From Dehalococcoidales bacterium (GTDB taxonomy: Bacteria > Chloroflexota > Dehalococcoidia > Dehalococcoidales > BS750m-G39): a stretch of 42,624 bases of DNA. Positions 11,198-34,666 of the stretch are shown in pieces; within the stretch, counting starts at the first letter, position 1, and the number at the start of each line of letters is the position of its first letter. Below the pieces are notes generated by a model. It saw nothing but the letters and a program-made list of their open reading frames with translations, was not told where the DNA came from and searched no databases. The position numbers and the translations under genes are program-made. The stretch covers positions 1 through 42,624 of the forward strand of contig JADHWY010000004.1 of assembly GCA_016783245.1 (NCBI GenBank), written 5' to 3'.

Positions 11198-11260
11198 AAA
11201 GCGCTGTTATTCAGCGGAAAATTAAAGACGGCGATAGGGGCTATTTGTTAATGGAAGTTT

Positions 11261-11333
11261 GAAGGGGCGTGCCGCCCCTTCAAAACCCATACCCCCTCTC
11301 CCCTTTGGAGGAGAGGGGGACACAGGGGGTGAG
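11261..11333 (+). repeat. Two-hairpin dispersed repeat, copy 1, upstream of hisG
   Basis: Hairpin 1 is GAAGGGGCG/CGCCCCTTC (11261-11269 with 11273-11281). Hairpin 2 is CCCCCTCTCC/GGAGAGGGGG (11292-11301 with 11310-11319). A tail ACACAGGGGGTGAG (11320-11333) follows and ends at the hisG GTG, so its GGGGGTGAG acts as the Shine-Dalgarno. A second copy with the same architecture precedes purD (20591-20660, minus strand). ACCCCCT (11291-11297) could also pair with AGGGGGT (11324-11330) and mask the ribosome site. Confidence 0.75.
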
Positions 11334-12755
11334 GTGGATAAACAATTAAAGATAGCGTTGCCTAAGGGACGCCTTTTAGGCGAAACAGCCGCCCTGCTCC
11401 AGGGTGCGGACTGGGGGTTAACTGGATATCATGCGAGGGCTCGCCTTTATCGCCTTGAATCAGAGATGTTTCCCAACCTCTCGGCTAAGGTGTTCCATGA
11501 GAAGGATATCCCTATTCAGGTGGCAATAGGAAACTATGATTTGGGTATCTGCGGGCTGGATTGGGTGGAGGAGCTTTTGGTTAAGTATCCCAGCAGTGCC
11601 GTGATTAAGGTCAAAAACCTTGAGTATGGTGAAGGTGTCTTATACATGGTGGCCGCTCGCTCTGATGGGATATCTACAGAGGAGGGCTTGGTTCGGATTG
11701 CCACCGAGTACCCTAATCTGGCTGAGTCCTTTGCTCTGAATCGTCGGCTGAGAAGGTTTAGCATCTTTCCCCTGTGGGGAGGGGCTGAGGTCTATCCTCC
11801 CGAGAGTGCTGAGTTAGCCCTGATTTCGGGAAAGGCGGGGAAGAGGTCGTTTGGTTATGACCTTATACCGATAAGCGAAGTCCTCAGTTTCAATGCCGCC
11901 CTCATCGCCAATAAGAACAGCTGGCAGACAAAGGACTTGAGTCAGGTGTTGGCTTCTCTTGGAGATGGGCTATCGGCCGACAGAAAACAGCCCTCCTCTG
12001 CTGGGGTAAGGAGTGCGCCATCGGAAAAGCCCGTGATATCTCCCGAAGCTCGACGTGGAAAAGATGCCGGAGCGACAGTCCGGCTTGCTTTGCCTGATGG
12101 ACATCAGCAGCAACCAACCCTCCGTCTGCTGAATAGAGCTGGCATTGAGGTTGACGACTATCCTTCAAAGAGGGGCAATCGCCGACCAGTTGCCAAGCTG
12201 GAGGGTGTGACAATTAAGGTGATTAGGCCTCAGGATATGCCATTACAGGTAGCCAATGGAAACTTTGATCTGGCCATTACCGGTAAAGATTGGCTTAGGG
12301 AGCATCTTTATCAGTTTCCACCAAGCCCGGTGGCAGAGCTTATCGACCTCAAATTTGGCAAGGTGCGGATAGTGGCGGTAGCAAGCAAGGATTTGTCGGT
12401 GACCGACGCCTATAGTCTAAAGCAACTTAATGCTGAGCAGTCGGTGCCATTGAGGGTGGCTTCGGAGTATGTCAATATAGCGGATAAGTATGCCAGAGAT
12501 AATCACCTGGGGATGTATAGAATAATACCCACCTGGGGGGCTACTGAAGCCTTTTTGCCTGAGGATGCCGACCTGCTGATTGAGAATACGCAGACTGGGC
12601 GGACCATAGCCAGGCACAACCTCAAGATAATTGATACCCTTTTTGAGTCAACGGCCTGCCTCATCGGTAACACAAATAGCATATCCAGCTCCAGCAAGAG
12701 AAAAAGGATAAAGTCTATCACCGAGATGCTGCGAAGGGCGGTGGAGAATGGCTAA
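11334..12755 (+). CDS. hisG: ATP phosphoribosyltransferase, tandem HisG-HisG fusion
   Basis: The first step of histidine synthesis joins ATP and PRPP. This protein is 473 residues, about twice a short-form HisG, and contains two HisG-like units. Unit 1 (about residues 5-215) starts LKIALPKGRLL, continues DIPIQVAIGNYDLGICGLDW and FPLWGGAEVYPPE, but lacks the usual PRPP loop (GKAGKRS at 166-172). After an Ala/Ser/Pro-rich linker, unit 2 (from about 249) starts VRLALPDGHQQ, continues DMPLQVANGNFDLAITGKDW, and keeps the PRPP-loop pattern TGRTI at 421-425. Each unit is thus degenerate where the other is intact, suggesting a composite active site (inference). GTG 11334 is chosen because it follows GGGGGTGAG; an in-frame TTG at 11259 lies inside the repeat. 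It overlaps hisD by 8 bp. Confidence 0.88.
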   Translation: MDKQLKIALPKGRLLGETAALLQGADWGLTGYHARARLYRLESEMFPNLSAKVFHEKDIPIQVAIGNYDLGICGLDWVEELLVKYPSSAVIKVKNLEYGEGVLYMVAARSDGISTEEGLVRIATEYPNLAESFALNRRLRRFSIFPLWGGAEVYPPESAELALISGKAGKRSFGYDLIPISEVLSFNAALIANKNSWQTKDLSQVLASLGDGLSADRKQPSSAGVRSAPSEKPVISPEARRGKDAGATVRLALPDGHQQQPTLRLLNRAGIEVDDYPSKRGNRRPVAKLEGVTIKVIRPQDMPLQVANGNFDLAITGKDWLREHLYQFPPSPVAELIDLKFGKVRIVAVASKDLSVTDAYSLKQLNAEQSVPLRVASEYVNIADKYARDNHLGMYRIIPTWGATEAFLPEDADLLIENTQTGRTIARHNLKIIDTLFESTACLIGNTNSISSSSKRKRIKSITEMLRRAVENG

Positions 12756-19314: not shown

Positions 19315-20586
19315 TTATTTTGCTCTCGCTTTCAGGTCAGCGATGTCCTTACGATAATGACAGCTCTCAAAGTGAATTCGGTTGATGTTATTATAGACCT
19401 TTTCTCTGGCTTCGGCGATGGTGCTGCCGGTAGCAACCACCGTGAGCACCCGTCCCCCGTCAGTCAATACCTGCCCTTCTGAGCCTACCTTAGTTCCGGC
19501 GTGGAATACCACAATGTCTTTGTCCACAGCATTTAACCCGGTGACGGGGAAACCTGTCTGGTAGCTACCTGGGTATCCCCCCGATGCCATCACCACCCCC
19601 ACACAGGCGTCATCGCTCCATTCTATATCCATCTGGTCAAGGTTGCCATCGATTACTGCCAGCATAATATCCGCCAGGTCGGTTTTGAGCAGTGGCAGGG
19701 TAACCTGGGTCTCCGGGTCACCAAAGCGGGCGTTAAATTCCAGCGCCTTTACTCCTTTATCGGTTACCATTAATCCCCCGTAGAGGACACCCTTATAGGG
19801 TCTGCCTTCCTCAGCCATAGCCTTTGCTGCTGGTTGAAGGATGGTTTCCTTCACTGTCTGGGACAGTGTTGGGGTGAGGAAGTGGGGGGGGCTGTAGCTG
19901 CCCATGCCGCCGGTATTGGGGCCCTGGTCGTTGTCAAATACGGGTTTATAATCGCAGGCGGAGACCATAGGGATGACAGTTTTACCATCGGTAAAAGCAA
20001 AGCAGCTCATCTCCTCGCCGGAGAGGCACTCCTCAATAATTACCTTATTGCCAGCAGCACCAAAGGCTTTGGCTTCCATAATATTGGCTAGGGCGTCCGA
20101 GGCTTGCGATATGGAATCGGCTACGATTACCCCCTTCCCCGCCGCCAGCCCGTCAGCTTTGACTACAATAGGCGTTTTTTGCTGCTGGAGGTATTCCTTT
20201 GCCTGGCCATATTCAGAGAAGCTGGCGCTGTTTGCGCAGGGGATGCCGTATTTTTGCATCAGCTCCTTGGCGAATACCTTGCTTGATTCTATCTCGGCGG
20301 CAGCTTTGGTGGGGCCAAAGATAGGAATGCCTATACCTTGAAAATAGTCAACAATGCCATCGGCTAGAGGCGACTCCGGCCCGACGACGGCCAGCTCGAT
20401 ACCCTTTTCCTGGGCTACTTCGGCCAGCGACTCTATATCATTAGGCTTGATATCCAGGTTATGGGCAAGCTGAGCGGTGCCGGCATTGCCCGGGGCAGCG
20501 TAAATCTCTTTGACCTTAGGGCTCTGGGCTAGCTTCCAGACTAAAGTATGCTCCCTAGCCCCGCCGCCAATAACCAGTATTTTTAT
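19315..20586 (-). CDS. purD: Phosphoribosylamine--glycine ligase with non-canonical start
   Basis: An ATP-grasp enzyme making glycinamide ribonucleotide. The full frame spans about 423 residues, normal for PurD. It runs from IKILVIGGGAREHTLVWK (the conserved N-terminal glycine-rich strand) through KADGLAAGKGV and EFNARFGDPETQ. No ATG, GTG or TTG occurs in frame before 20259, which would delete the first 109 residues including the substrate-binding N domain. Candidate starts are ATA at 20586 or 20580, or CTG at 20577, 4-13 nt after GGGGGTGAG. An in-frame TAG precedes at 20589. The Shine-Dalgarno lies in a repeat also found before hisG. Either a rare AUA/CUG start is used or the sequence has an error. 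Confidence 0.9.
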   Translation of the reverse strand: MKILVIGGGAREHTLVWKLAQSPKVKEIYAAPGNAGTAQLAHNLDIKPNDIESLAEVAQEKGIELAVVGPESPLADGIVDYFQGIGIPIFGPTKAAAEIESSKVFAKELMQKYGIPCANSASFSEYGQAKEYLQQQKTPIVVKADGLAAGKGVIVADSISQASDALANIMEAKAFGAAGNKVIIEECLSGEEMSCFAFTDGKTVIPMVSACDYKPVFDNDQGPNTGGMGSYSPPHFLTPTLSQTVKETILQPAAKAMAEEGRPYKGVLYGGLMVTDKGVKALEFNARFGDPETQVTLPLLKTDLADIMLAVIDGNLDQMDIEWSDDACVGVVMASGGYPGSYQTGFPVTGLNAVDKDIVVFHAGTKVGSEGQVLTDGGRVLTVVATGSTIAEAREKVYNNINRIHFESCHYRKDIADLKARAK

Positions 20587-20590
20587 CTAC

Positions 20591-20660
20591 CTCACCCCCT
20601 GTGTCCCCCTCTCCTATCAAGGAGAGGGGGAAGGTTTTATAAGAGGGGTTTCACCCCTCT
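20591..20660 (-). repeat. Two-hairpin dispersed repeat, copy 2, upstream of purD
   Basis: Read on the minus strand it has the same order as the copy before hisG. Hairpin AGAGGGGT/ACCCCTCT (20642-20660) is followed by the identical 10-bp stem CCCCCTCTCC/GGAGAGGGGG (20605-20630). The tail ACACAGGGGGTGAG then ends at 20591, just before the purD start region. Similarity to copy 1 continues a few bases further (GTGGATAAA versus GTAGATAAA). The loops differ, so the stems are conserved as structure. No gene was found in 20661-20710, which has a short AGTCC/GGACT hairpin. Confidence 0.75.
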
Positions 20661-33712: not shown

Positions 33713-33746
33713 TTGATTCTTAAAGGCAAGGTTCATAAATACGGAG
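33713..33746 (+). repeat. Partial copy of the leuD 5' end upstream of hicAB
   Basis: This 34-bp stretch matches 34163-34196, the start of leuD, at 31 of 34 positions, including 23 identical bases (33722-33744 with 34172-34194). In leuD the frame reads LKGKVHKYG; here the same residues are encoded but the start ATG is ATT and the frame soon ends. The two copies are exactly 450 bp apart and bracket hicA and hicB. The 3' edge of this copy now supplies the sequence just before the hicA ATG. Confidence 0.85.
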
Positions 33747-34152: not shown

Positions 34153-34165
34153 CAGGAAAAAGTTG

Positions 34166-34666
34166 ATGCTAAAAGGCAAGGTTCATAAATACGGGGAGAA
34201 TGTCGATACCGATGCCATTATCCCGGCGCGGTACCTCAATGTGTCTGAGCCAGCAGAGCTGGCAAGGCACTGCATGGAGGATATAGATAAGGATTTTGTT
34301 AAGAAGGTTAAGCAGGGGGATATCATCATGGCGACCACCAATTTTGGCTGCGGCTCATCGCGAGAGCATGCCCCGCTGTGCATCAAGGCAGCGGGGGTGT
34401 CCTGTGTCATCGCCAAAAGCTTTGCCCGCATCTTTTTCCGCAATGCGCTAAACATCGGCTTGCCCCTGCTCGAGTGTGAGGAGGCGGTAGATAACACCGA
34501 GGCTGGAGATATTCTGGAGTTTGATTTAGCCAGTGGCAGGATAAAGAACCTGACCAGAGGCGAGGAGTTTATCGCCAAGCCTTACCCCGATTTCATGGCG
34601 GAGTTGATTTCAGCCGGTGGGCTGATTGAGCATACTAAAAAGAGGTTAGCCAGCAGGAGGATATAG
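34166..34666 (+). CDS. leuD: 3-isopropylmalate dehydratase, small subunit
   Basis: A 166-residue small subunit of the archaeal/short type, partner of LeuC. Key segments are [14 protein letters not shown] near the N-terminus and [20 protein letters not shown], which shapes the substrate pocket. ATG 34166 has AGGAAAA upstream; TTG 34163 is in frame but less likely. Its first 34 bases are duplicated 450 bp upstream, before hicA. It is followed by leuB with 1 bp between them. Confidence 0.95.

Follow-up and report, generated by a model that had tools for sequence, protein, structure and literature searches.

The AUA codon is regarded as almost unusable for bacterial initiation, and it hardly ever begins a protein. 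In Staphylococcus aureus, infC, ccpN and citZ combine AUA with an extended Shine-Dalgarno (SD) sequence, and the non-canonical starts measured in this species gave about 10-30% of the AUG output (PMC13009471, as excerpted). According to the excerpts of a second source, IF3 represses non-canonical starts, is autoregulated in this way, and controls weak starts that include AUU in Escherichia coli infC and ATC and GTC in infC and sigR of Streptomyces (PMC5472188). We describe here a modular, putatively mobile palindromic repeat from an order of the Dehalococcoidia that, judged by its sequence, is very probably a portable translation-initiation site with a weak AUA start. The architecture is the same as at the AUA and AUU starts of S. 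aureus (infC, ccpN, citZ and cvfC1), namely an extended SD plus AUA or AUU, infC included; whereas the excerpts of that study concern four single genes, one mobile sequence would here serve at least 12 gene families (PMC13009471). With the IF3-controlled starts of E. coli and Streptomyces (PMC5472188), infC of the family studied here shares a weak start codon, in its case AUA. Rickettsia palindromic elements (RPE) and MITE/REP-type repeats are likewise short, interspersed and palindromic, with many copies of which some lie in frame in genes. By the partial description available in PMC10969869, RPE are in-gene insertions, whereas the end of the present repeat gives an SD and a start codon to many genes. 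In a search of open-licence PMC papers, no description of a repeat that provides AUA starts was found.

The window (the whole stretch of 42,624 nucleotides of Dehalococcoidales DNA that was analysed) holds two copies of the repeat, copy A before hisG and copy B before purD (Table 1). In both, hairpin 1 is followed by hairpin 2, with its GC-rich 10-bp stem, and then by ACACAGGGGGTGAG, which confirms the order given in the initial annotation. Copies A and B share the arms CCCCCTCTCC and GGAGAGGGGG, then ACAC and the tail AGGGGGTGAGGT, and are 88% alike over the 49 nt compared. The consensus of the 3' module is AGGGGGTGAGGT[A/T]GATAAA[C/T]AA. Its tail, AGGGGGTGAGGT[A/T]G followed by ATA, consists of the SD, a spacer of 8 nt after GGGGG that often ends in TAG, and the AUA codon; the duplex of AGGGGGTGA with the anti-SD has 9 pairs and an energy of -14.8 kcal/mol. 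The 16S 3' end GGCTGGATCACCTCCT was present in 3 of the 11 genomes of the window's GTDB family, the others probably having no assembled 16S. Among 266 distinct tails, 220 were adjoined by a hairpin. Hairpin-1 stems occurred upstream in matched versions with differing loops (AAGAGGGGC/GCCCCTCTT, AAGAGAGGC/GCCTCTCTT, TTGAAGGGGC/GCCCCTTCAA and AAGGGGGAC/GTCCCCCTT), and both arms change together across copies, in line with the earlier remark that stems are kept while loops vary. Covariation of the hairpin-2 arms cannot be judged from these copies, because they were collected by the GGAGAGGGGG pattern. By eye, GAGGTTGATAAACAATCTC was frequent in non-genic tails, and one locus (L007) has GAGGTTG-ATAAA-CAACCTA; this suggests that ATA lies in the loop of a weaker, third hairpin.

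Table 1. Positions of the repeat copies and of the genes behind them in the window.
Feature	Position	Strand	Remark
Copy A, whole	11258-11336	+	before hisG
Copy A, hairpin 1	11258..11284	+	TTTGAAGGGGCG-TGC-CGCCCCTTCAAA; from sequence and stem/loop families across copies
Copy A, hairpin 2	11292..11319	+	CCCCCTCTCC ... GGAGAGGGGG; 10 bp, 8-nt loop
Copy A, hairpin 2 arms	11292-11301 and 11310-11319	+	
Copy A, Shine-Dalgarno AGGGGGTGA	11324..11332	+	pairs over 9 bp (one G.U) with anti-SD UCACCUCCU
hisG, 473 aa	11334..12755	+	starts at GTG inside the repeat tail
Copy B, whole	20660-20584	-	before purD
Copy B, hairpin 1	20642..20660	-	AGAGGGGT-GAA-ACCCCTCT
Copy B, hairpin 2	20605..20630	-	CCCCCTCTCC ... 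GGAGAGGGGG
Copy B, hairpin 2 arms	20630-20621 and 20614-20605	-	
Copy B, Shine-Dalgarno AGGGGGTGA	20592..20600	-	
In-frame TAG directly before purD start	20587..20589	-	
purD AUA start codon	20584..20586	-	
purD, 423 aa from AUA	19315..20586	-	TIGR00877 matched from model position 1

In the 1.03-Mb draft genome, GGAGAGGGGGACACAGGGGGTGAG had 3 exact matches, and 12 matches at up to 3 mismatches versus 6 for a reversed-pattern control, which exceeds chance, while BLAST with copy A hit about 20 distinct places. Across the genomes compared, which were mostly metagenome drafts, the repeat occurred in 10 of the 11 of the GTDB family, with 2 to 74 copies where present, so that the interspersed repeat family suspected from the window alone was borne out. 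In a sample of 393 Dehalococcoidia genomes, 14 contained the exact tail AGGGGGTGAGGTAGATAAA: 12 of the 49 in the window's order (own family included) versus 2 of the 344 elsewhere in the class. Among the 80 of 118 matching stretches that were listed, the named matches were nearly all Dehalococcoidia or Dehalococcoidales MAGs, and a few carried Deltaproteobacteria or other labels. Two genomes placed by GTDB in the window's family (G006 and G007; JABMRW01 and JAUVYB01) are also titled Deltaproteobacteria, and the labels of these two are probably wrong.

Two properties of the family are those of a MITE, namely many dispersed, palindromic, non-coding copies, and presence or absence of the repeat at orthologous sites, which differed among related genomes at purD, a HAD-like gene, fumarase and hisG. 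A third, insertion in frame into protein-coding genes, is that of RPE. In two genera (G000 and G010; L007:1011-1925 and L102), a SAM hydroxide adenosyltransferase gene contains the whole element in frame, predicted to be translated as a linker of ~40 residues, and a tRNA nucleotidyltransferase-like gene (L028) contains a fragment. In one locus (L148:4756-4800), ~11 purD-like codons (about 30 nt) stand behind the tail and an ORF unrelated to purD follows them, which looks as though a purD flank had accompanied the repeat in a move or a recombination. The copies would thus have moved as transposable units. The window also contains a 32-nt direct repeat (33713-33744 and 34163-34194; 94% identical, 450 nt apart).

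Placement relative to genes was counted for 130 copies with enough flank, after 17 near locus edges had been dropped. Both flanking genes ran in the repeat's direction for 64 of these and against it for 13 (binomial p = 3e-9, a value that is optimistic because ORF length was the sole criterion for calling genes and because orthologous sites are among those counted). Gaps between divergent genes held 31/130 copies, convergent gaps 12/130 and ORF interiors 6/130, with one neighbour undetermined for 4/130. The initial annotation had named random scatter relative to genes, with no strand or start-codon bias, as the outcome that would speak against its reading; given the 64 versus 13, that is not what we observed, and the sense strand favours the downstream gene. 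An ORF of at least 100 aa opened in the tail of 45 of the 140 full copies, in the ATA frame in 25 cases and in the other two frames in 11 and 9. The proposal that the repeat serves as a ribosome site therefore stands for a subset of genes and is not supported for the 95/140 full copies without a long ORF opening at the tail, some of which lie between convergent genes or inside ORFs.

It had further been proposed that the CCCCCT strand pairs either within hairpin 2 or with the AGGGGG of the ribosome site, so that the latter is exposed or hidden. In the minimum-energy fold of the hisG copy the SD was indeed paired with the 5' arm of hairpin 2, but in that of the purD copy it was not paired with this arm. 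Ensemble pairing of 182 copies gave more than 3 arm-SD pairs in 7/21 start-site copies versus 54/161 others. Hairpin 2 itself was present at 13/21 start sites versus 61/95 places elsewhere (p = 1), and we rejected its preferential retention at start sites since there was no association; the remaining 8/21 start-site tails head genes without it. A conserved two-state switch is thus very unlikely, and the predicted alternative fold would be a property of the repeat's sequence that is not enriched where it could act. Rfam searches gave four and one sub-threshold matches, none near the gathering score. A known Rfam leader or RNA switch was also rejected, the alternative fold being in addition non-specific to start sites.

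The earlier statement that the copies end at the start-codon region was accurate for hisG, which begins at its GTG, whereas purD has no usual start codon after the repeat. Read in the purD frame, copy B continues as TAG-ATA AAA ATA CTG GTT, and an upstream start in this frame is ruled out by the TAG directly before ATA. The first 109 codons of the window's purD contain no ATG, GTG or TTG, and of the 36 ORFs in the window with 140 aa or more it is the only one to lack a usual start in the first 80 codons. The first position of TIGR00877 aligns to residue 1, and the N domain PF02844 covers residues 2-100. Over codons 2-54 of seven tail-bearing purD genes, dN was 0.05-0.21 versus a dS of at least 0.5 wherever dS was computable; these codons are under purifying selection. 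All 7 tail-bearing genes read TAG-ATA at the start. The SD energy for the purD AUA was -15.3, from a start-codon scan that often favours internal codons and was relied on for purD only. Readthrough of the TAG or TAA before ATA, from a true start further upstream, is hardly conceivable: a GTG is sometimes present in the upstream frame, but TAG is the normal end of 7/36 window ORFs, TAA stands at the same place in one copy (L009), and orthologues start exactly at the ATA codon.

The purD genes without the tail carry CTG at this codon in four loci (L075, L143, L148 and L240) and TTG in a fifth (L077), and L078 has ATA after a degenerate tail. In the genes with CTG, the frame is closed by a stop 2-18 codons upstream, the interval contains no ATG, GTG or TTG, and in the downstream direction the first usual start follows at a distance of 15-109 codons. 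Because repeat-free purD apparently also uses CTG, weak purD starts are not due to the repeat alone, and they seem to be a lasting feature of this gene in the window's order.

The same arrangement recurred in other genes. The ATN frame held 47 ORFs of 100 aa or more. A TAG or TAA stood just before the ATN codon in 32 of them (31 with ATA, 1 with ATT), and in 25 of these 32 a usual start (ATG, GTG or TTG) was absent for at least 7 codons. In 13/47, TTG precedes ATA, and there TTG or GTG could be the start. Functions could be assigned to 23/32 stop-preceded ORFs, which span 12 gene families (among them purD seven times, phosphohexomutase three times, ispD, carA, hisG, hisI, mtnA and fumarase), orthologous copies not being independent insertions; for the other 9/32, either there is no assignment or an early ATG is possibly the real start (e.g. 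in grpE and purE). Orthologues with and without the repeat use equivalent codons. The HAD-like gene has TAA-ATA AAC AAT TTT in G000 and TAG-ATA in L167, and without the repeat it has ATG at the same codon in L092-L097 and one codon later in L091. Fumarase beta has TAG-ATT in G000 versus ATG at the same codon in L084 and L086-L089 (L085 not counted).

For hisG, the start reads TAG-ATA in G001 and G010, TAG-ATA ATA in G005 and G009, TAG-ATA in the degenerate tail of G004 and TAG-ATG in G002, and the gene has no tail in G006 and G007. Against these orthologue tails, the window's GTG appears to be a derived state. The G000 tail is one T shorter and carries GTG, which moves the start to another frame, and we read this frame change as probably reflecting selection to start within the tail. 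In the hisG genes without the repeat (L390 and L392; G006 and G007), no ATG, GTG or TTG was evident just before the conserved N-terminus. Two stretches of the window's HisG (11334-12752) match HisG models, apparently reflecting a tandem fusion, and HisG orthologues in other genomes of the family are of similar length.

Supply of an AUA start site by the repeat to a subset of genes, many of them essential to metabolism, is well supported by these sequence comparisons. We envisage that a copy landing at the 5' end of a gene would replace the native ribosome site and start codon, that its strong SD would compensate for the weak AUA codon, and that ribosomes would then initiate at AUA. The tail could alternatively work by reinitiation, with a start at the GTG in GGGGGTGAGGTAG, a GUG-AGG peptide, a stop at TAG and a restart at the adjacent AUA. 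GTG AGG TAG indeed stands in frame right before ATN in 31/31 TAG cases, GGAGAGGGGG lies 8 nt before that GTG in hairpin copies, and degenerate tails such as that of G004 hisG still read GTG AGA TAG ATA. Some copies, on the other hand, have TTG, TTA or TCG in place of the stop, and the 8/21 genes headed by tails without hairpin 2 therefore have no upstream SD. With a strong SD suitably spaced from AUA, reinitiation is also unnecessary, and we consider it improbable.

Direct initiation at AUA would have a precedent in the same genomes. We located infC in 9 of the 11 (L375-L383), with an SD and then ATA at the start position in 9/9 and no usual start in the next 17-18 codons of any; this lineage thus seems to have AUA starts that do not come from the repeat. 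The repeat-borne start is of the same type, a codon other than AUG, GUG or UUG behind a strong SD. The initiator tRNA, with anticodon CAU, would begin translation at this AUA. Its stem-loop pattern GGGCTCATAACCC was found, and ARAGORN, run on 9 loci, called tRNA-Met(CAT) in 8 and no tRNA in the ninth (L341). The version with a TAT anticodon, GGGCTTATAACCC, was not among the matches listed for the 11 genomes in a search that covered this stem pattern only. An altered initiator tRNA reading AUA was rejected, the anticodon being the ordinary CAT in the 8 loci found.

By analogy with infC, the output of repeat-started genes would be low and IF3-sensitive. Control of these genes by IF3 is plausible, and we hypothesize that they are regulated through it. 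A stronger proposal, possible but doubtful, is that the repeat is an AUA start cassette which spreads by itself and has assembled a translational regulon that responds to IF3 and is under infC-like weak-start control. There is nearly an even chance that the repeat is instead neutral or selfish and that near starts only those copies survive that recreate a ribosome site, with no shared regulation. The 95/140 copies elsewhere fit such a repeat, as does a hairpin 2 no commoner at start sites. The bias in orientation and the constant register between AUA and the reading frame point the other way, to strong filtering or use, and AUA was kept in 7 purD orthologues though a single mutation would give AUG. 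This alternative bears on regulation, not on the AUA start site itself.

Because AUA is treated as almost unusable, gene finders that consider only ATG, GTG and TTG would truncate AUA-started proteins; the window's purD would lose its first 109 codons, i.e. the whole N domain. Genes that naturally carry AUA, together with their orthologues starting at AUG, CUG or UUG, form a matched set for testing the interplay of strong SD, weak codon and IF3. If the regulon exists, genes for purine, histidine, pyrimidine, isoprenoid and envelope precursor synthesis would share the control of infC, and their translation would rise whenever IF3 is in short supply compared with ribosomes. By distributing such starts, a mobile repeat would give transposition a route to the rewiring of translation instead of transcription.
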